A program made the position numbers and the translations under genes. From a virus, in the IMG/VR virus record IMGVR_UViG_3300046096_000162, positions 1 to 23,569 of that record: a stretch of 23,569 nucleotides of DNA, one strand, 5' to 3'. Below are positions 5,032 through 14,785 of the stretch, in pieces (the stretch's first letter is position 1; each line of letters begins with the position of its first letter). The notes under the pieces were generated by a model, which saw only the letters and a list, made by a program, of their open reading frames with translations, had not been told where the DNA came from and did no database searches.

Positions 5032-5469
5032 ATGGTTTACAAAGAGTATCCTGGAATTAATAAAACCTATGTTGTCGTACACCAGACAGGTACTGGTCCA
5101 ATGGAAGATCCTTATATCGAAAAAGGACCTATATTCTTTACAAACAGTCTTGCAGTAGCTAATAAAGTAGTTTCTAAAAATAGAAAATACCACAACTCTC
5201 CAGCAGAATTACGCAGTTCTTGGGTACCTAATACGTATGTTATTCATGTAAACACGCTTACTAAAAAAGGTGCGTTTCTGTTAAAGAAGTTTCATGAACT
5301 TATAGAACTCAAACACAAACATGTTGAAGAGAATCCTGATCTATACGATACTTATGAGTTAGATGGTAAAACTCTTTATCTAAAGAAAGATTCTCTTTTT
5401 TCAGAAAGTCTTTTGCACCCAAGACCCTTAGAGTCTTATGAAATGAAGTTTATAAACATGAATGAATAA
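5032..5469 (+). CDS. Hypothetical protein (145 aa)
   Basis: Reads MVYKEYPGINKTYVVVHQTG from ATG 5032. A mixed alpha/beta N-terminal half (TYVVVHQTGTGPMEDPYIEK, GPIFFTNSLAVANKVV) is followed by a helix (LLKKFHELIELKHKHVEENP) and a strand-rich tail (YELDGKTLYLKKDSL). No known active-site motif is seen. It follows a 30-aa gene by four bases and is part of the same rightward operon. Family unknown. Confidence 0.7.
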   Translation: MVYKEYPGINKTYVVVHQTGTGPMEDPYIEKGPIFFTNSLAVANKVVSKNRKYHNSPAELRSSWVPNTYVIHVNTLTKKGAFLLKKFHELIELKHKHVEENPDLYDTYELDGKTLYLKKDSLFSESLLHPRPLESYEMKFINMNE

Positions 5470-5483
5470 TAAATAACACGAAA

Positions 5484-5933
5484 ATGGAAAAATATTACAC
5501 CCCTGAAATAGAAGAATTCTGTGTAGGATTTGAATACGAGTATAAGAACTCTAGTTCAGATACTTTATTTGAATTTGAAAAAGCAATTATAAACTCTAGT
5601 AGTTCTTTTTTGCTAGGTGAACTAGAAAATGAGTCTGAACACTTGTTATCTAATATAGAGTTTGAAATATCACAAGGTTATATAAGAGTTAAGTATTTAG
5701 ACAAAGAAGATATTGAGGAACAGGGGTTCATTTTTAGCTGGGAAGATTATGATAAAGGTGACTTTACACTTACCTACATAAGAACAGAGATTAATAGTCT
5801 ATTAATATTAAAGGATAGTCGAATGTCTAATGGAAAGATATTTGTAGGACAGATTAAAAATAAGTCTGAATTAAAGAAACTTCTAAAACAATTATTTCCA
5901 AATGAGACACATAAAAACACAGAACTGGAATAA
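5484..5933 (+). CDS. Uncharacterised 'YYTPxIEEFxxGFEYE' family protein, intact copy (149 aa)
   Basis: The N-terminus MEKYYTPEIEEFCVGFEYEY and the block RVKYLDKEDIEEQGF (about residues 70-84) match a pattern I recall from many uncharacterised Bacteroidota phage proteins. The C-terminus ends in KNKSELKKLLKQL. A second copy lies 244 bases on (6177-6693) with the same three blocks: KYY, KYLDKEDIE, KNKAELRKLLKQL. The paralogy is therefore direct sequence evidence. The first half has a Ser-rich stretch (NSSSSF). Function unknown; no membrane or catalytic signature. Confidence 0.8.
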   Translation: MEKYYTPEIEEFCVGFEYEYKNSSSDTLFEFEKAIINSSSSFLLGELENESEHLLSNIEFEISQGYIRVKYLDKEDIEEQGFIFSWEDYDKGDFTLTYIRTEINSLLILKDSRMSNGKIFVGQIKNKSELKKLLKQLFPNETHKNTELE

Positions 5934-6042
5934 TCAACAACCTCATCAGAATATCATTATTGGGAAGATGGTTGATACTACTCCTAAATACATTACTAAA
6001 GATGGTTTGTTCTTTTTAAATACTCAAAATAATGGAAAATAA
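5902..6042 (+). CDS. Small hypothetical protein overlapping its neighbours (46 aa)
   Basis: The frame opens at ATG 5902 inside the 3' end of the previous gene and ends with TAA 6040-6042 (MRHIKTQNWNNQQPHQNIII ... NTQNNGK). A later ATG at 5968 would avoid the 32-base overlap and leave 24 residues. The end overlaps the next ATG (6032) by 11 bases. A polar N-terminus is followed by PKYITKDGLFFLN. Function unknown. Confidence 0.45.
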   Translation: MRHIKTQNWNNQQPHQNIIIGKMVDTTPKYITKDGLFFLNTQNNGK

Positions 6043-6187
6043 TAAAGAAGAAAGTCCTAAATGGATTGTTGTAGAAACAAATGGGGTTAAGGTTTATTGG
6101 GACCCTGAAAAGTACAAAGAGTATAAGAAGATTTGTGAAGGGATGGATAAGTTACAAGATAAACTTTGGTATAATAATGGAAAATAA
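6032..6187 (+). CDS. Small hypothetical protein (51 aa)
   Basis: Reads MENNKEESPKWIVVETNGVK, then VYWDPEKYKEYKK and a helical end DKLQDKLWYNNGK. It overlaps both neighbours by 11 bases. The string AATAATGGAAAATAA marks its start (6028-6042) and recurs at its end (6173-6187), so it and the upstream gene both end in NNGK while it and the downstream gene both begin MEN. Function unknown. Confidence 0.55.
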   Translation: MENNKEESPKWIVVETNGVKVYWDPEKYKEYKKICEGMDKLQDKLWYNNGK

Positions 6188-6693
6188 ATATTACCCTGCA
6201 ACACTTGATGATATTATAGATGGTCTGGAGTATGAAGTAAAACATTGGTTTTGTAAAGGTACTAATGGAGAAGAACTTCCTGGATGGAAAAGTGATAACG
6301 AGAAAGAGAAGTATTTTAAATGGATCCCTTTTTCTTTAGATTTGAAGAAGTACAATAGTTTTGTAGATGACAGGACTAGTTATAATCGTTTTTGTTTCCA
6401 AGCTGATTATAGTACAGGATCAAATGCAAGAATTAAGTATTTAGATAAGGAAGACATTGAAAGTTTAGGTTACTCTCTAAGTAAGTAAGGAAGATGGTGA
6501 CTACAAATGGTTTTTAAAAGTTGGAGAGTTCTACAAATATCATATAGTGATATGTCCTATATCTAGTAGAAATCTTGGAGTATACATAAATATGTTTACT
6601 AACCAAGACACAGACCAGACAATTAGGTTCTCAGGATTTGTTAAAAACAAAGCTGAATTACGTAAACTTTTAAAACAATTAAATATATCATGA
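6177..6693 (+). pseudogene. Second 'YYTPxIEEF' family copy, broken by a 4-bp repeat expansion
   Basis: The first part reads MENKYYPATLDDIIDGLEYE and reaches KYLDKEDIESLGYSLSK before a stop at 6486-6488 (103 aa). Downstream, a shifted frame continues EDGDYKWFLKVGEFYKYHIV and ends VKNKAELRKLLKQLNIS with TGA at 6691-6693. That is the C-terminal block of the 5484-5933 paralogue. The break falls in TAAGTAAGTAAG (6478-6489). Removing one TAAG gives an uninterrupted 170-residue protein. It may be a decayed copy, a phase-variable gene, or an assembly or sequencing slip. Its last bases overlap the ATG of the next gene (ATGA). Confidence 0.8.
6478..6489 (+). repeat. Tetranucleotide repeat (TAAG)x3
   Basis: Three perfect TAAG units; the third supplies the TAA stop. 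Loss of one unit restores the frame of 6177-6693. Confidence 0.85.
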
Positions 6694-6872
6694 CACCACA
6701 AGAAGAATTAGATTTCCTAGATAACTTATATGTTGCAAGGAATCCAGCAGAAACACACAGAAATGTAGCTAATAGAATAGCTGAGTTACAATTAACTATT
6801 ATACCACAGGAAACTAAGTACAATGAACAACTCTCAGAAAAAGAAGGATTCTTCTACGATAAACCAGAATGA
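6690..6872 (+). CDS. Small helical protein (60 aa)
   Basis: Reads MTPQEELDFLDNLYVARNPA from ATG 6690, overlapping the preceding frame's TGA (ATGA). It is acidic and predicted helical, with a second helix ETHRNVANRIAELQLTII and a polar tail. No motif recognised. The overlap with the shifted C-terminal part of the preceding gene is a normal stop/start junction. This suggests the preceding gene was recently intact. Confidence 0.6.
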   Translation: MTPQEELDFLDNLYVARNPAETHRNVANRIAELQLTIIPQETKYNEQLSEKEGFFYDKPE

Positions 6873-6975
6873 TAAATCACACATTACAATATTTCAACAT
6901 TGTAATTGTGAAAAGAAGTTAACTAAACATACCTTTGTAGATAATAAACTAATTTGTAACCAGTGTAAAAAATGA
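6823..6975 (+). CDS. Small zinc-ribbon-like protein (50 aa)
   Basis: The frame opens at ATG 6823 inside the previous gene and runs to TGA 6973-6975 (MNNSQKKKDSSTINQNDKSH). The C-terminal half has HCNC (about residues 26-29) and CNQC (45-48) separated by 15 residues. This is the CxC...CxxC spacing of a short zinc ribbon with a beta hairpin (FVDNKLICNQC) before the second pair. The Lys/Ser-rich N-terminus looks disordered. Its stop overlaps the next ATG. It was missed by a size cutoff but is well supported by the Cys pattern. Confidence 0.55.
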   Translation: MNNSQKKKDSSTINQNDKSHITIFQHCNCEKKLTKHTFVDNKLICNQCKK

Positions 6976-7118
6976 AAGGACTCATAGATCAAATAGAGGA
7001 ATCTAAAAATAAAAAAGAATTTCCTCCACATTTAAAGCTTACAGTAGAAAAACTTAGAAAAATAGTAGCTGATAAATTTCAAAACCCAAATAATCATGAA
7101 ACCGGAAACAAAGTATAA
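6972..7118 (+). CDS. Small charged protein (48 aa)
   Basis: Reads MKGLIDQIEESKNKKEFPPH from ATG 6972 (ATGA overlap with the upstream stop). A central helix, LKLTVEKLRKIVADKF, precedes an Asn-rich end that overlaps the next gene by 23 bases. No motif recognised. Confidence 0.5.
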   Translation: MKGLIDQIEESKNKKEFPPHLKLTVEKLRKIVADKFQNPNNHETGNKV

Positions 7119-7290
7119 AATGATAATGACACTACCGTTCCTAATAATGTTATGGTTATTTGTAATAGCTTGTATAGCTGGAGAGTATTTCTATCAACAT
7201 GAATCTGTTAAAGGACAGATTGTGGTGTGGGGTACATTTGTAAGTATTGTAGTTGGGTTTTTGGTTTACATTAGAGTTAAAAACAAATGA
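7096..7290 (+). CDS. Two-transmembrane-helix protein (64 aa), holin-like in shape
   Basis: Two hydrophobic helices at about residues 9-29 and 41-59 are joined by a polar turn (YFYQHESVKG). The N-terminus is charged (MKPETKYK) and the C-terminus basic (RVKNK). The topology and size match small phage membrane proteins, including class II holins. No endolysin is visible next to it, and the following gene is a larger membrane protein. A holin role is therefore only a possibility. Confidence 0.65.
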   Translation: MKPETKYKMIMTLPFLIMLWLFVIACIAGEYFYQHESVKGQIVVWGTFVSIVVGFLVYIRVKNK

Positions 7291-7757
7291 TAAACTTCCT
7301 TCTATATACAATGTTAGTGTTAGCTACCGCAGTAGCTAATGCTTTCATAGATAATTATTTAATAAAGAAGAAATGGGGTAAGGTTAAAAATCTTAATCAT
7401 ACTTCACGTACAGTTATTAGATTCTGCATATTTACTTTAGGTGGTTACTTCTTATATGGAGAGGAGGTACATGTACAAGAATATATGTGGCAAATGTTGC
7501 TAGAGTTTTTTAAACCTTTTCTCATAGTTCTTTATAGTTTCTTCTTGTTTAATATTGTATTTGATTTATTGTTAAATAAACTTAGAAGTCTTCCTTGGTA
7601 CTATGATGGTAAAGATGCTTACTTTGACCAGTTATCAAGTCATTACAACAGGACTTTATCTAAGGAATCTCATACTACTGAACTTGTAGCATACATTGAA
7701 TTAGGTGCCAAATTAATCATTACTTTAATTCTAGCAGTATGGATATTGTCAATATAG
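7287..7757 (+). CDS. Polytopic membrane protein (156 aa)
   Basis: Starts MINFLLYTMLVLATAVANAF, overlapping the upstream stop by four bases. Likely membrane segments lie at about residues 2-20, 43-58, 70-95 and 137-156. A basic loop (IKKKWGKVKN) and a soluble loop around YYDGKDAYFDQLSSHYNRTL fall between them. It is not a family I recognise. Pairing with the two-helix protein directly upstream suggests a joint role at the inner membrane (lysis, exclusion or host takeover); this is inference from context. Confidence 0.7.
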   Translation: MINFLLYTMLVLATAVANAFIDNYLIKKKWGKVKNLNHTSRTVIRFCIFTLGGYFLYGEEVHVQEYMWQMLLEFFKPFLIVLYSFFLFNIVFDLLLNKLRSLPWYYDGKDAYFDQLSSHYNRTLSKESHTTELVAYIELGAKLIITLILAVWILSI

Positions 7758-7969
7758 CTAGAGGGATTTTAAATGCTACTAGAGCTGAGTTCGGTGTAGC
7801 AGATCCTAAAGTAGAAGAAAAAGCTTTTGGGAGATATTGTACTTGTGTACAATGTCCTACTATATCAGAAGATCAGAATTGGTGTGATAAAGATAAAGGT
7901 GGATGTGGGTGTAAATTGGGGTGGCTTCTTAGAAGTAATAAGAAATGTGTTAAAGGACATTGGTCATGA
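7739..7969 (+). CDS. Cys-rich zinc-binding-like protein (76 aa)
   Basis: Starts at ATG 7739 within the end of the membrane protein gene (19-base overlap). Seven cysteines occur at about residues 34, 36, 39, 49, 56, 58 and 70, in the order CxCxxCP ... C ... CGCKL ... KCVKGHW. The pattern 'CP ... C ... CGC.l ... C..G.W' recurs in small proteins of Bacteroidota phages and probably binds zinc. The N-terminal 30 residues form a helix. The role is not known; protein or nucleic-acid contact is the usual use of such ribbons. Confidence 0.65.
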   Translation: MDIVNIARGILNATRAEFGVADPKVEEKAFGRYCTCVQCPTISEDQNWCDKDKGGCGCKLGWLLRSNKKCVKGHWS

Positions 7970-8106
7970 AAAAGAAGATAAAAAAAGAAGACTTTAACGT
8001 AACTATAAAATACCATCCTTTAGTGGATGTACCTTCACCGCCTAATACTGTAAGTTTTAAATGGATTTATGTAGACTTTAGTAATGGAAAAGAGAGAGTA
8101 TTGTAA
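7966..8106 (+). CDS. Small hypothetical protein (46 aa)
   Basis: ATG 7966 overlaps the preceding TGA (ATGA); stop TAA 8104-8106. The basic start MKKKIKKEDFNVTIKY leads to a Pro-rich turn (VDVPSPPN) and a strand (TVSFKWIYVDF). Its end overlaps the next gene by 23 bases. No family recognised. Confidence 0.5.
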   Translation: MKKKIKKEDFNVTIKYHPLVDVPSPPNTVSFKWIYVDFSNGKERVL

Positions 8107-8332: not shown

Positions 8333-8611
8333 ATGAAACCTACACAAAATTACGTGGTACTAGAAATGCCAAGATTTGAAGAGAAGACTAAATCTGGTGT
8401 ACTAAAAGGAGAAGAAGCTATTAAAGAGGAGATGAAGATCCTTGATAAACTAAAACTTAAAGTATTAGCTGTAGGTCCTAGTTGTGTTTCAGTTTCAGTA
8501 GGAGATAAGATAGCTATTGAGAGACATGCTTTTACAATGTGTACCGATGTAGATTTTGAAGGTCTACCTTCTATGTGTCTTAGAGAGACTTCTATAATCG
8601 GTGTTTATTAA
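8333..8611 (+). CDS. GroES-like co-chaperonin (92 aa)
   Basis: Reads MKPTQNYVVLEMPRFEEKTK, followed by SGVLKGEEAIKEE (the mobile-loop position), VLAVGPSCVSVSVGDKIAI and a C-terminal ETSIIGVY. This matches the cpn10 order: KP..drVlv, TksGGI.l loop, kVlAVG, VkvGDkv, esdIlav. At 92 residues it is close to the usual 95-100. Such phage proteins cap host GroEL and help fold capsid protein, as gp31 does for T4. It lies just before the terminase genes, which fits a role in head assembly. The leader carries AATAATCACACT, a string also found before the scaffold-like gene and the 16548 gene. Confidence 0.75.
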   Translation: MKPTQNYVVLEMPRFEEKTKSGVLKGEEAIKEEMKILDKLKLKVLAVGPSCVSVSVGDKIAIERHAFTMCTDVDFEGLPSMCLRETSIIGVY

Positions 8612-8616
8612 TACTT

Positions 8617-9168
8617 ATGGAGTTATTCAAGTTAAATGAAGATTTCTTAGTAGATATAAATAAAGAATGGATTCAGTTACATGAAGCATTCAAAAAGATC
8701 TACTTAAGAGATAAAGGTAATAACTCCAATCACTATAAAGGTAGGTTTAAGTTTCAAGCTCAAAAGGAGTTTACTTACATCTACCTTTTATGTGATTATA
8801 GATCTAATTTGGCACAGTATTCTGAAGAAGAGAGAGAAGAACAATCTCGTAAAGATGCTGGGTTAGATGTTGGGTGGAAACCTGATAAGGAGATTAAAGA
8901 TGCTATTGAGAGGTATCGAGAACTTCAACAAACTAGACCCCTTAAACTTCTCCAAGCTGCTCATAAAAAGATAGACAACATGATCCGTTTATTAAATGAA
9001 GAACAGGATGAAATGGCTATTGAGGATATTACTAATAACATCAAAGCTATGAAAGATATAGCAGGTCTTCTCAAAACTATTGGAGAACTTGAGAATATGA
9101 CTAAGAAGGAGCTGAGTGAGACAGGTAATGGTAGAGGGAATGTTGAATTAGGAGAGAATGAATTATGA
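8617..9168 (+). CDS. Candidate terminase small subunit (183 aa)
   Basis: It lies directly before the large terminase, overlapping its ATG by four bases (ATGA). The protein is helical and charged (MELFKLNEDFLVDINKEWIQ), with a basic patch around YKGRFKFQAQKEF and an acidic, likely coiled C-terminal half. The position and charge fit the packaging recognition subunit that binds phage DNA and feeds the large terminase. There is no clear helix-turn-helix sequence motif, so the assignment rests on context. Confidence 0.45.
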   Translation: MELFKLNEDFLVDINKEWIQLHEAFKKIYLRDKGNNSNHYKGRFKFQAQKEFTYIYLLCDYRSNLAQYSEEEREEQSRKDAGLDVGWKPDKEIKDAIERYRELQQTRPLKLLQAAHKKIDNMIRLLNEEQDEMAIEDITNNIKAMKDIAGLLKTIGELENMTKKELSETGNGRGNVELGENEL

Positions 9169-11270
9169 TCTCAATAAATATAAAGGAGTTTTCTAAAACT
9201 GCTGACTTCTTCTTAAAACATGGGAGGTATACCAAAGCTCCCATTAAGTCTAAGGATTGGTATGAATTCTGGAGAGAGGAAACTAAAAGATGTGAGGAAG
9301 GTTATCAAGTAGGAGATGTTAAGGTTACTGGGGAACATTACTTCTTTATGAACTTCACTCCTATGAAAGTTACTCCCCCTGGAGTAGATCACACTAAAAA
9401 AGGAGTTAATAAAGTACTTCAGTTTCCTAGATTTAACCTACTTGATTATAACTGGTTCTGGTCTAAGAATATAGCTAGATGGGGAACTACCGAAGAACAT
9501 CTTAAATCACTTGATTTATTCTGGAGACCTAATCTTTTAGATGCTATAGCTGGGGGAAAACATCTTATCTGTGCTAAAACTCGTGGATGTGGGTTTTCTT
9601 ATAAAGCTGCTGCACATGGTGTCTATAACTACAACTTTATTAGGAAGAGTAAGTCATTCTACTTTGCATCCAAAGATCCTTATTTATGGGGAGCTGATGG
9701 AATTATGCTTAAGTGTTGGGATGATCTTGAATGGTTAAATGGTAATACAGATAACTGGTGGAGGAAGAACCGGATGGAGATTGATAACTCCAGTGAAAAG
9801 AAAGCCTCTGTCAAAATAAAGACTCCTCAAGGTGTAGAAGTAAAGGGTTACCAATCTATGATTGGTGGGGTTATTGTAGATGACCCACAAAAGGTTAGGG
9901 GTGCTAGGGGAGAGCTTCTAATCTTTGAAGAAGGTGGCTCTTTTAGAAATCTTAGTAAAGCTATAGCTGCTGCAAAACCCTTAGTTGAAGACGATACTGT
10001 AGTAACTGGTCAAATTATTGTCTTCGGTACGGGAGGACAAGCTGGCGAGGACATTCAGGGACTTGAAGATCTCTTCTATTCTCCTGAGTCTAACAACTTT
10101 ATGAGGTTTGATAATATCTGGGACCCGGATGATATTGAAGAGTTTGGATTCTTTGTCCCTTGTACTGCTTACTCTCCTAAGTTTACAGATGAGTTTGGTA
10201 GCCCTATGTGGACTGAAAGTAAAAAAGAATGGGAGGAAAAAAGAGAACTTACTAAAAAATCAAAAGGTGCCAATGCACTTAGGGACTATGACCTCTTAAT
10301 TGCGGAACGTCCTTTTAATCCTTCTGAATCTTTTAAGCGTGTACACAATAATATCTTTAAGAACGCTCTCTACTTTATAAATGAACAGATAAAGAATATC
10401 CAGCATAATAAAGAAGTACAAAGGAATATCCAGAATGGTTCTTTAATGAAAACTAATGATGGGTATGAGTTTTTACTTAGGACTGACGTAGTACCTATAG
10501 ATCATTATCCGCATAAAAACAACGAGGATCTTGATGGATGCTTTACTATTTACGAAATTCCTCAAAAGAATCATCTTGGTGAGATACCACAGTTTTTATA
10601 TTACACTGTAGTGGACCCTTTTGCTATTGACGATGCTATTGACAGGACATCACTTGGAGTATGTTATGTAATTAAACAACCTTCTTTTGATTATGGAGAT
10701 GGTAATAAGATTGTAGCTAAGTATGTAGGTAGACCTAACTTTGTACAGAAGTTTTATGAGAAGGTACTTTATCTTACTGAATATTATAGAGCTACATGTC
10801 AGTCTGAGATAGCCGGTGGTGGACAAGGACTCTTAGACTATTTCAAATCCAGAAATAAGTTACATCTGTGTGAATATGAACCTGACCATATTCTACATGG
10901 TAAGGAGATGGATAAGAATACTAGGAACAGATCTTTCTTTATGCGTATGCCTGAAGAGATTAAGAAGATAGGTTTATTGTATTTAGCTGAGTGGTTATGT
11001 CAGGAAAGAGGTACTACAGGAGATGGGAGAGCTATTCTTAATGTACATAAGATTTATGATTTAGGTTTATTGCAAGAGTTAGCTAAGTTTAATCCTGATC
11101 CTAAGAAAAATTATGATCGAATATCCTCGATGTTACTTGCCATGTATATGTTTAAGGAGAAAGAACACCTAACACTTAAGGAAACGAAGAAGTCTAAATC
11201 TGATTTCTTTTCTCGAAATCTCTTTTCTAATAATCCAGGGAGACACTCTGCTCACACATTACTAATTTAA
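9165..11270 (+). CDS. terL: Terminase large subunit (701 aa)
   Basis: ATPase part: ICAKTRGCGFSYKAAA at about residues 135-150 is the modified Walker A of large terminases, LLIFEEGGSF (251-260) the Walker B with catalytic Glu, and IIVFGTGGQ (284-292) the coupling motif. Nuclease part: TVVDPFAIDD (481-490) supplies the first catalytic Asp pair of the RNase H-like fold, with EIAGGGQGLLDYF next. It pumps DNA into the prohead and cuts it. The length of about 700 residues suits crAss-like phages. It overlaps the candidate small subunit by four bases and is followed by a promoter and the portal gene. Confidence 0.92.
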   Translation: MISINIKEFSKTADFFLKHGRYTKAPIKSKDWYEFWREETKRCEEGYQVGDVKVTGEHYFFMNFTPMKVTPPGVDHTKKGVNKVLQFPRFNLLDYNWFWSKNIARWGTTEEHLKSLDLFWRPNLLDAIAGGKHLICAKTRGCGFSYKAAAHGVYNYNFIRKSKSFYFASKDPYLWGADGIMLKCWDDLEWLNGNTDNWWRKNRMEIDNSSEKKASVKIKTPQGVEVKGYQSMIGGVIVDDPQKVRGARGELLIFEEGGSFRNLSKAIAAAKPLVEDDTVVTGQIIVFGTGGQAGEDIQGLEDLFYSPESNNFMRFDNIWDPDDIEEFGFFVPCTAYSPKFTDEFGSPMWTESKKEWEEKRELTKKSKGANALRDYDLLIAERPFNPSESFKRVHNNIFKNALYFINEQIKNIQHNKEVQRNIQNGSLMKTNDGYEFLLRTDVVPIDHYPHKNNEDLDGCFTIYEIPQKNHLGEIPQFLYYTVVDPFAIDDAIDRTSLGVCYVIKQPSFDYGDGNKIVAKYVGRPNFVQKFYEKVLYLTEYYRATCQSEIAGGGQGLLDYFKSRNKLHLCEYEPDHILHGKEMDKNTRNRSFFMRMPEEIKKIGLLYLAEWLCQERGTTGDGRAILNVHKIYDLGLLQELAKFNPDPKKNYDRISSMLLAMYMFKEKEHLTLKETKKSKSDFFSRNLFSNNPGRHSAHTLLI

Positions 11271-11275
11271 TTTCT

Positions 11276-11283
11276 TACTTTTG
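11276..11283 (+). promoter_or_regulatory. -7 promoter box before the portal gene
   Basis: TACTTTTG is a perfect TAnnTTTG match, 5 bases after the terminase stop and 16 bases before the portal ATG at 11300. It would give the head genes a transcript separate from packaging genes. Confidence 0.6.
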
Positions 11284-11299
11284 TCTAAAATAAACAGTA

Positions 11300-13705
11300 A
11301 TGAAAGAAAATTCTGGAGCCAAACCTGTACAACGAATTTCTTACTCTGAGAAGGTTAAGAATAAGAATGAATGGGGTAAGCTAAATATAGATCATTATCT
11401 TAAAGGTGCTAATTTTCACTCTGGTAATTCAACTAGTGATAACAAGGCCTTTATATACGAACTTCACAATAACATATTTCCTGAGAATTGGTCAAGATAT
11501 GTAACCAACCCTTTCAACTCAGCTAATCCGATATATGAAAATCAACCTGCACCTATTCGTAGGGTGAATATAGGGAGACCTGTAATTGAAAAGTTACTTG
11601 GAGAATATATCAAAAGACCCTTTAGTTGGTTTGTAGACAAGATAGGTGAAGGTGGTTATAACAACTATACAGAGAAATTAGGGCAAACTCTTACACAAAA
11701 CCTACAACAACATTTCATTAACTCTTTAGATCCTGAAGTATTTAAGCAGATACAAGCAGAAAAGAAGGAAGTTCCTTATCCGGATAAATTAAAACAGGAG
11801 TTTGACGCTTCTTATCAGGATGCAGAAGCAATTGAAGCACAGAAAATGCTTACACTACTTATGTCCGACCTTAGTTTCTTTGAGAAGTCAAGAGCTTTGT
11901 GGAAAGACTTTGTATTTGCAGGAGAAGAATATTCTTTTAAGTATATTCAGGATGATGAAATTGTTTACCAGAAGATCTCTCCCCTTGATTTATACACAAT
12001 CCCTTCTTATAACTCTCCTTACATAGAGGATGCAGATTTTGCAGTTATTAGAATGATAATGTCTCATAGTGAGATACTTGATAAGTTCTATTATGAAATA
12101 ACTGAGAAGGAACTTGATTCCCTAGAGTCTCATAGTAATGCCTTCCAATTATCTAATTTCTTCAACCGACTTAACAATAGTCCTAACTCTCTATCTACAG
12201 ATAAATTAGACATCTATTATGTTTGTTGGAAATCTCAAAAGAGAGTAGGGTTCCTAAAATGGACAGATGAAACTGGACAAGAGTTTGAAGATTTAGTAGC
12301 AGAAGGTTACTCCCCTAATAAAGAACTAGGTGAATCTGTTACTTGGAAATGGGTATCTGAAGTATGGGAAGGGTATAAACTATCTAATGATGTATACTTA
12401 GGTATCAGACCAGTACCTTATCAGAGGAACGAACTTCACAATATCTCTAAATGCAAGTTACCTGTAAATGGTAGACGTTATTCAGATACACATGCTCAGA
12501 ATATTTCTATTTATGAGGTAATGGTAGAGTGGATTAAACTCTATGTTATCTGTACTTATAGACTAGAGAGAATGATAATGAAGTCTAAGGATAAAATACT
12601 TCTTTTAGACAAAGCTGTTATACCTGATGAAGCTGAATGGGATGAAGATAAATTCTTTTACTATGCTGACACACTTGGATTTGCTCTTATTGATAGATCT
12701 AAGATTGGTGTAGATAGAAGTTTTAACCAATACACAGTGTTAGACATGTCTTTGTACCAACACATCAAAGAGATGATTGGTGTATTAGAATGGATTAAGA
12801 AGGAATGTTATGATACTATTGGTTTTTCTGAACAACGCCTTGGTGAAATATCTACCTCTGCTACAGTTACAAATACAAATAATGCTATATATGCTTCTTC
12901 AGTTATTACAGAAGATTTGTTTGTGAAGCATGAGGAGTTTATCCAAAGAGAACTTCAAGGATTATTAGATCTATCAAGACTATGTTATGTAGATGGTAAG
13001 AAGTCTATTTATTACACAGATGATAGAAGAGTAGAACTTCTTAATATTAATCCGGAAGTATCCTCATACGAAGATCTTTTAATTAAGGTTACAAATTCTT
13101 CTAAACAAATAGAAAAGTTAAACCAAATCAAACAGTCTCTACAAGCTATGGCTCAGAATGGAGCTAAAGGATCTACATTAATTGAGATTATAGATTCCGA
13201 GAATGTTTCTAAGATGAAACAAGTTCTTAAGAATATAGAACGTATGGAACAGGAGCAGCTTGAAGCTCAACAACTAGGTGAACAAGAACATCAGACTCAG
13301 TTACAACAAATGCAAGCTGAGAATACACGTCTTCTACAAGAGTTTGAACTTCTTAAATTAAATACTAAGTATGATAGAGAAGAACAATTAGAGTATATTC
13401 AAGGGGACCTAGCTATGAATCTTGAACAAATCAAGATGTCTGGCCAAGTAAATCCTGATTCAAATGGAAATGGTATCTTAGATATTAATGAGGTACAGAA
13501 AAGAGCTATTGATAGAGAAAAGATCTTTGAGGACAGAAGAGATAGAACTAGTAAGGATACTATCAAACAAAAAGAACTTTCTCTTAAAGAACAAGAACTT
13601 AAAATGAAAGATAATCACGCTAAACTGAAAGCGGATACAGATAAATACAAAGCTGATGTCAGTCTGAAAATAGCTAAAGAAAACAAAAACAAATCAGATA
13701 AATAA
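11300..13705 (+). CDS. Portal protein (801 aa)
   Basis: Second in the packaging/head order after TerL, and about 800 residues long as in crAss-like phages. The N-terminal region has RVNIGRPVIEKLLGEYIKRP, the clip/stem part is Trp- and Tyr-rich, and STSATVTNTNNAIYASSVIT (about 510-540) precedes a long helix. The last 160 residues are a Gln/Glu/Lys coiled coil (MEQEQLEAQQLGEQEHQTQL onward). Portals form the 12-subunit ring through which DNA enters and leaves the head and on which TerL docks. It stops 9 bases before the next ATG. Confidence 0.85.
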   Translation: MKENSGAKPVQRISYSEKVKNKNEWGKLNIDHYLKGANFHSGNSTSDNKAFIYELHNNIFPENWSRYVTNPFNSANPIYENQPAPIRRVNIGRPVIEKLLGEYIKRPFSWFVDKIGEGGYNNYTEKLGQTLTQNLQQHFINSLDPEVFKQIQAEKKEVPYPDKLKQEFDASYQDAEAIEAQKMLTLLMSDLSFFEKSRALWKDFVFAGEEYSFKYIQDDEIVYQKISPLDLYTIPSYNSPYIEDADFAVIRMIMSHSEILDKFYYEITEKELDSLESHSNAFQLSNFFNRLNNSPNSLSTDKLDIYYVCWKSQKRVGFLKWTDETGQEFEDLVAEGYSPNKELGESVTWKWVSEVWEGYKLSNDVYLGIRPVPYQRNELHNISKCKLPVNGRRYSDTHAQNISIYEVMVEWIKLYVICTYRLERMIMKSKDKILLLDKAVIPDEAEWDEDKFFYYADTLGFALIDRSKIGVDRSFNQYTVLDMSLYQHIKEMIGVLEWIKKECYDTIGFSEQRLGEISTSATVTNTNNAIYASSVITEDLFVKHEEFIQRELQGLLDLSRLCYVDGKKSIYYTDDRRVELLNINPEVSSYEDLLIKVTNSSKQIEKLNQIKQSLQAMAQNGAKGSTLIEIIDSENVSKMKQVLKNIERMEQEQLEAQQLGEQEHQTQLQQMQAENTRLLQEFELLKLNTKYDREEQLEYIQGDLAMNLEQIKMSGQVNPDSNGNGILDINEVQKRAIDREKIFEDRRDRTSKDTIKQKELSLKEQELKMKDNHAKLKADTDKYKADVSLKIAKENKNKSDK

Positions 13706-13711
13706 TCACAC
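13696..13711 (+). repeat. 16-nt leader repeat before the scaffold-like gene
   Basis: AGATAAATAATCACAC is identical to 16530-16545, 2-3 bases before the ATG in both places. Part of it also recurs at 8307-8318 before the GroES-like gene. Here it overlaps the last codons and stop of the portal gene. Confidence 0.75.
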
Positions 13712-13714
13712 ACT

Positions 13715-14785
13715 ATGGAAACGACATTACCAGATTGGTTAGCACCAGATGAGCAGGAACAACTTACAGATCCTGCTCTAACACCTTCTACACCTGAACC
13801 AGTTGTACAAGCAGAACCTATTGTAGAGGAACCTAAGAAAAGAGGTAGACCTGCTAAAGCAATAGAACCTACTCCCACACAAGAGTCTACTGAGGAACCA
13901 GGTATGAATCTTGAGCAAGCTCTTACTGAAAAAGCTAAAGAGGTTGAATCAGAAGATAATTTCTGGGAAGATGTATGGGCACTTACAGGAGATGAACTTC
14001 CTGTAGAATTTAATGGGATAGATCCTAAGTTAGTACTTGAAACTTATTCTGAGAAAAAGGTTAGTGATTTTGAGGAACAGTTAAAATCTAATTACCCTAA
14101 AGAATATCAAGCTCTAATCATGAGATCAGAAGGACTTGATCCTTCTAGTTTGTATAAACAAGAATCTCTTGATTATAGTACTATTAAGATTGTAGATAAT
14201 GAAGAGAATGAAGGTGTACAGAAACAAGTGATTCGAGCAGATCTTGAAGCTCAAGGACTTAGTACTAAACGTATCGAAGCACTTATCAAAAACATCTATG
14301 ATTCAGGTGATTTATATGAGGAGTCTAAAGAATCTCTTACTAGGTTGAAGGATATTCAAAAAGAAGAATTAGTAAAGTACGAACAAGAGATTGCTCAAAA
14401 AGAACAAGTCAAGAAGGAAACCTTAGATAGTTTTAGTAAAGTAATCACTGAGAATATATCAAAGGGACAACTTGGTAACTTTGTAATCTCTGATAAAGAC
14501 AAACAGCCTTTTTATAATTACTTAGCTAAACATGTACAGTACTCTAATGGAGAGTTTGTAATGGCAGTACCTCTTACTAAGGAACCAGAAGAGTTGATGA
14601 AACAACTTCAGACTGAGTTCTTTAGATATAAGCAAGGAAACCTTAGGGATATTATTGTAAAACAAGCTGTTACAGAGAATACCAAACGTCTTAAAAAGTC
14701 AATTAAAGAAAGTTCTGGTATAGAAAGAGGTTCCCAAACTAAAGCTTCAGATGTGTCTTGGAAAGAGATAATGGGAATGGGTTAA
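13715..14785 (+). CDS. Acidic scaffold-like head protein with AT-hook-like segment (356 aa)
   Basis: The N-terminal 70 residues are acidic and Pro-rich, with KKRGRPAK (about residues 41-48), the core of an AT-hook. The rest is helical and charged (FWEDVWALTGDELPVEFNGI, YEQEIAQKEQVKKETLDSF), ending in basic NTKRLKKSIKES. Its place between portal and major capsid genes, high charge and helicity fit a scaffolding or capsid-assembly protein, and such proteins often carry a C-terminal capsid-binding helix. The AT-hook hints at DNA contact and is unusual for a scaffold. The assignment is by context. Confidence 0.5.
   Translation: METTLPDWLAPDEQEQLTDPALTPSTPEPVVQAEPIVEEPKKRGRPAKAIEPTPTQESTEEPGMNLEQALTEKAKEVESEDNFWEDVWALTGDELPVEFNGIDPKLVLETYSEKKVSDFEEQLKSNYPKEYQALIMRSEGLDPSSLYKQESLDYSTIKIVDNEENEGVQKQVIRADLEAQGLSTKRIEALIKNIYDSGDLYEESKESLTRLKDIQKEELVKYEQEIAQKEQVKKETLDSFSKVITENISKGQLGNFVISDKDKQPFYNYLAKHVQYSNGEFVMAVPLTKEPEELMKQLQTEFFRYKQGNLRDIIVKQAVTENTKRLKKSIKESSGIERGSQTKASDVSWKEIMGMG

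Follow-up and report, generated by a model that had tools for sequence, protein, structure and literature searches.

The stretch between positions 6177 and 6693 of a viral genome fragment reads as two short pieces in different frames, which raises the question whether it holds two genes, one gene that was recently broken, or one gene in which a change of frame is put to use. The fragment, hereafter the window, is the whole stretch of DNA that was analysed and comprises 23,569 bases from an uncultured virus. Judged from its genes, the window is a Crassvirales fragment, since the capsid, portal and terminase matches are all crAss-type. The capsid gene matches the Crassvirus major capsid protein in Pfam (PF23898 Crass_capsid, E 1.4e-54), the portal shares 28-30% identity over its length with those of many crAss-like phages, and the terminase large subunit (TerL; 9165-11270, plus strand) matches phrog_6681 (E 3e-101). 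At the DNA level, no match to the window was present in the INPHARED phage collection or among the plasmids searched. When IMG/VR was scanned with the terminase, neighbouring genes and the family, only distant members or contigs ending short of the 6177-6693 locus were obtained, and a close relative spanning this locus was found neither in IMG/VR nor in INPHARED. The related sequences L014 and L015, which start at about window position 7524 and at position 10207, respectively, both miss it. An Rfam scan of window positions 5400-8000 gave no match, and promoter and terminator scans gave no more matches than in shuffles.

The first piece of the locus (6177-6488, plus strand) starts at ATG 6177, where it is overlapped by a preceding small gene (6032-6187, plus strand), and encodes 103 aa with the last residues ...ESLGYSLSK before a TAA at 6486-6488. 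This in-frame stop lies within the third unit of a (TAAG)x3 tract at 6478-6489, as the original prediction had stated; the tract sequence TAAGTAAGTAAG occurs once in the window. The second piece (6490-6693, plus strand) is one base out of frame with the first and is open from 6490 until a TGA at 6691-6693, with the 67-aa translation EDGDYKWF...FSGFVKNKAELRKLLKQLNIS and GTG 6547 as its first common start codon. Its stop overlaps the ATG of the next small gene (6690-6872, plus strand) as ATGA at 6690-6693, which agrees with the stop/start overlap proposed earlier. The accompanying arithmetic, that a single unit separates the broken from the joined frame, is also right because the offset between the two frames is one base and 4 bases equal 1 modulo 3. 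The exact TAAG tract has a mean occurrence of 0.02 in shuffled windows (a post hoc test), and perfect tetranucleotide tracts of at least 12 bases are expected 0.57 times per dinucleotide-shuffled window, with at least one such tract in 88 of 200 shuffles. Since tetranucleotide tracts of this length are expected by chance, the TAAG tract alone is unremarkable, and the observation that counts is the split gene.

Both pieces belong to one protein family, of which an intact member of 149 aa lies upstream (5484-5933, plus strand; 130 bits to the family profile). The family, named here by the sequences YYTPEIEEF/KYLDKEDIE, is small and uncharacterised and has the layout YYTPEIEEFHVGFEYE ... RVKYLDKEDIESLGF ... 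IKNKSELKKLLKQLNI, in which the blocks YYTPEIEEFHVGFEYE, RVKYLDKEDIESLGF and FxGxIKNKSELKKLLKQLNI are conserved and the middle is variable. The intact paralogue contains the N-terminal block YYxP...GFEYE, the middle block KYLDKEDIESLGF and the C-terminal block FxGxIKNKSELKKLLKQLNI in one frame, whereas in 6177-6693 these family blocks are spread across two frames. A family profile built from relatives, with the broken gene left out, is matched by both pieces in order and without overlap, the N-terminal piece (P0001) covering positions 1-73 (40.7 bits) and the C-terminal piece (P0002) positions 86-136 (34.1 bits). The likeness of the C-terminus to the intact neighbour, noted at the outset, was confirmed with 72% identity over 18 residues, and a further 67% over 18 residues is found around KYLDKEDIE. 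At the junction, a manual reading of the aligned paralogues sets FSWEDYDKGDF opposite LSK|EDGDY. For annotation, this means that 6177-6693 is to be entered as a single broken gene, not as two.

The break appears to be young. A codon-usage score trained on the other genes of the window, which is of modest strength, follows the ATG frame before the tract, the +1 frame after it and then the frame of the next gene, and P0002 retains the complete motif FxGxxKNKxELxKLLKQLNI. Because codon usage switches frame at the tract and the C-terminal motif is kept whole, the downstream piece still looks like coding sequence, which argues against long decay and for a recent break, the age that had been proposed from the stop/start overlap.

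Relatives of the family were found in IMG/VR, on four genome-collection contigs and in Cellulophaga phage phi14:2. In 63 of the 67 loci with TerL in reach, TerL lies downstream of the family gene, with both on the same strand and a median distance of 3.0 kb between them, and the two copies in the window are likewise placed 3.7 and 3.0 kb upstream of TerL on the same strand. In this region of the window, a 92-aa gene at 8333-8611 resembles GroES (PF00166 Cpn10, E 5e-4, slightly short of the curated cut-off), and phage GroEL genes are present in 20 of the fetched loci. Two or three family copies are found at 15 of 94 loci, the window not counted, and redundancy is therefore common in the family. 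No Pfam or PHROG model matches the family above chance; L002 has a weak PHROG match (E 1.9e-4) to a virion structural profile of 701 positions, and this match covers only the middle of the protein and was not taken as an indication of function. For the intact paralogue, AlphaFold predicts (mean pLDDT 78, pTM 0.63) a beta-rich C-terminal part with a helix at its end, and in this predicted fold the beta strands and the C-terminal helix come after the equivalent of the break. When the fold was compared with known structures, no PDB entry reached an E below 0.001 and VIA-align Z values did not exceed 5.2; two uncharacterised viral proteins showed a weak likeness. In L041, the gene at 6410-6733, which stands in tandem with a family member, has the middle and C-terminal blocks without the YYTPEI N-terminus, and the N-terminal block therefore seems to be detachable.

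How often copies of this family are split was determined by a six-frame survey of the fetched loci, in which copies with both ends found were counted (n=113). Intact copies numbered 111, one further copy (L065) is open with TGA read as tryptophan, and the one frameshifted copy is that of the window; the survey favours intact copies as loci were ranked by match length, a bias that is smaller for additional copies on the same loci. The intact copies represent 93 distinct DNA sequences and 90 clusters at 90% amino acid identity. The copy in L065 (1445-1909) was considered as a second frameshift and rejected, both interruptions being TGA codons at sites where tryptophan is plausible. It adjoins a GroEL gene and is open only with TGA as tryptophan, which suggests that L065 may be a phage with a TGA-recoded genetic code. 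Tetranucleotide tracts of at least 12 bases occur in 3 of the 93 distinct family copies, all with units other than TAAG. Outside the window, the family comes closest to a tetranucleotide repeat in L027 6001-6411 and L033 1119-1526, two intact copies that have a AAGAAAGAAAGAA tract in common near the 3' end.

Most probably, slippage recently turned 6177-6693, a redundant accessory gene of a Crassvirales family, into a null allele. The ancestor would have been an intact family gene with two TAAG units, to which polymerase slippage during replication would have added one. This ancestral state is judged from family members that are only distantly related (about 30-40% identity), since no close relative was found over the locus. 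The added unit would shift the frame and place TAA in frame, leaving a product of 103 aa without the domain's conserved C-terminal portion. Manual alignment puts the end of this product level with approximately residue 87 of the intact paralogue, so that most strands and the final helix would be missing. As the conserved C-terminus is lost, the product has presumably lost its function, and the loss is probably tolerable because the paralogue 240 bases upstream is intact. Gain of one unit is the simplest account because the two frames are one base apart, the junction falls at the tract and a threefold 4-mer is a known hot spot. In lacI, three tandem copies of CTGG form a hot spot for spontaneous insertions and deletions through gain or loss of one unit (PMC3485313). 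The original prediction that a tetramer in three copies can slip thus corresponds to a documented kind of mutation, and slippage would be a sufficient cause of the split, as (TAAG)x3 has the same make-up as the lacI hot spot.

The prediction had gone further and proposed a phase-variable or programmed-shift gene, which the chance length of the tract, the 111 intact copies and the ordinary RNA structure downstream do not bear out. With phase variation, the TAAG unit number would be a reversible on/off switch of one paralogue, and a population would mix expressed and silent copies. The capacity of three-copy, 4-base tracts to gain or lose units, for which lacI is the precedent, and the lack of decay in the downstream part are consistent with such a switch, but a contingency locus would have a tract longer or denser than chance, and this one has just three copies in 12 bases, a length expected by chance at the rate given above. 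Furthermore, only a narrow range of tract lengths could be open, given that TAA comes into frame with the third unit itself; the survey found no frameshift in any other family member, and the few long tetranucleotide tracts in the family have other units. An exact scan for GGTTACTCTCTAAGTAAG gave zero matches and thus returned neither an allele with another unit number nor any copy of the locus at all. We consider phase variation improbable, although reads showing both tract lengths in one population would make the locus a simple-repeat switch in a crAss-like phage. Even less credible, and the least so of all the readings, is a programmed +1 ribosomal frameshift at the tract that would yield a fused protein from the three-unit sequence. 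The frames do differ by +1, and a +1 move at AAG TAA G enters the downstream frame, but CTA AGT AAG TAA G appears to contain no identifiable slippery site at which re-pairing could occur. Programmed shifts have a conserved slippery codon and a stimulator, whereas here the RNA structure downstream of the stop is nothing unusual (z -0.48), and the relatives, none of which has the split, are read in one frame.

The two pieces might also act as two proteins, the 103-aa product and a short C-terminal product started at GTG 6547 or later. The coding character of the C-terminal piece and the existence of a relative without the N-terminal block (L041) speak for such a gene fission, but the domain interrupted by the break is intact in the L041 variant. 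Fission is very unlikely because GTG 6547, the only common start upstream of the conserved strands, already omits part of the domain. Another source of the split would be an assembly or sequencing error, with the third TAAG unit absent from the virus. The window is a metagenome-derived virus record, and its assembly does differ by an indel from that of a near-identical sequence: L015, which comes from another record, equals window 10207-14677 (4.5 kb, no substitutions) save for 18 bases that are missing from the window. These in-frame bases (NSPEGA; L015 3823-3840) are gone from the window gene at 13715-14785, at positions 14024-14033. They are present in L014, whose identity to the window is about 89% across the structural region, and the loss therefore took place in the lineage of the window or in its assembly. 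The missing piece keeps the frame and is flanked by two short CTAA repeats, as a real deletion would be, which supports the view that it may be a genuine small-indel change in the window's population. Errors of a 4-base tandem unit are rare in short-read assemblies, and the large window genes show no uncompensated frame-breaking gap against L014. An error at the tract is thus an unlikely source of the third unit, and a recent slippage null allele remains the preferred reading.

The frameshift is most likely an ordinary kind of mutation, with no evidence for a regulated switch, and as an allele it has little importance beyond annotation. The more durable by-product is a widespread, often duplicated and uncharacterised family whose genes precede the terminase in many crAss-like phages.

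Compared with known systems, the locus resembles contingency loci in having a coding tetranucleotide repeat. In contingency loci, the number of such units sets the reading frame, the tracts are long and length variation has been observed, whereas the window tract has only three units. A named counterpart of the intact paralogue is Phi14:2_gp116 (AGO48994.1, hypothetical protein) of Cellulophaga phage phi14:2 (Crassvirales, Steigviridae), which belongs to the same family with 38.8% identity over 91% of the paralogue. Its gene immediately follows GroEL within a run of small genes and, unlike 6177-6693, is intact and without a split. The (CTGG)x3 tract of lacI in E. coli and P. putida differs from the TAAG tract in unit sequence, organism and polymerase, but shares with it three tandem 4-base units in a coding sequence, where one unit gained or lost breaks the frame (PMC3485313).
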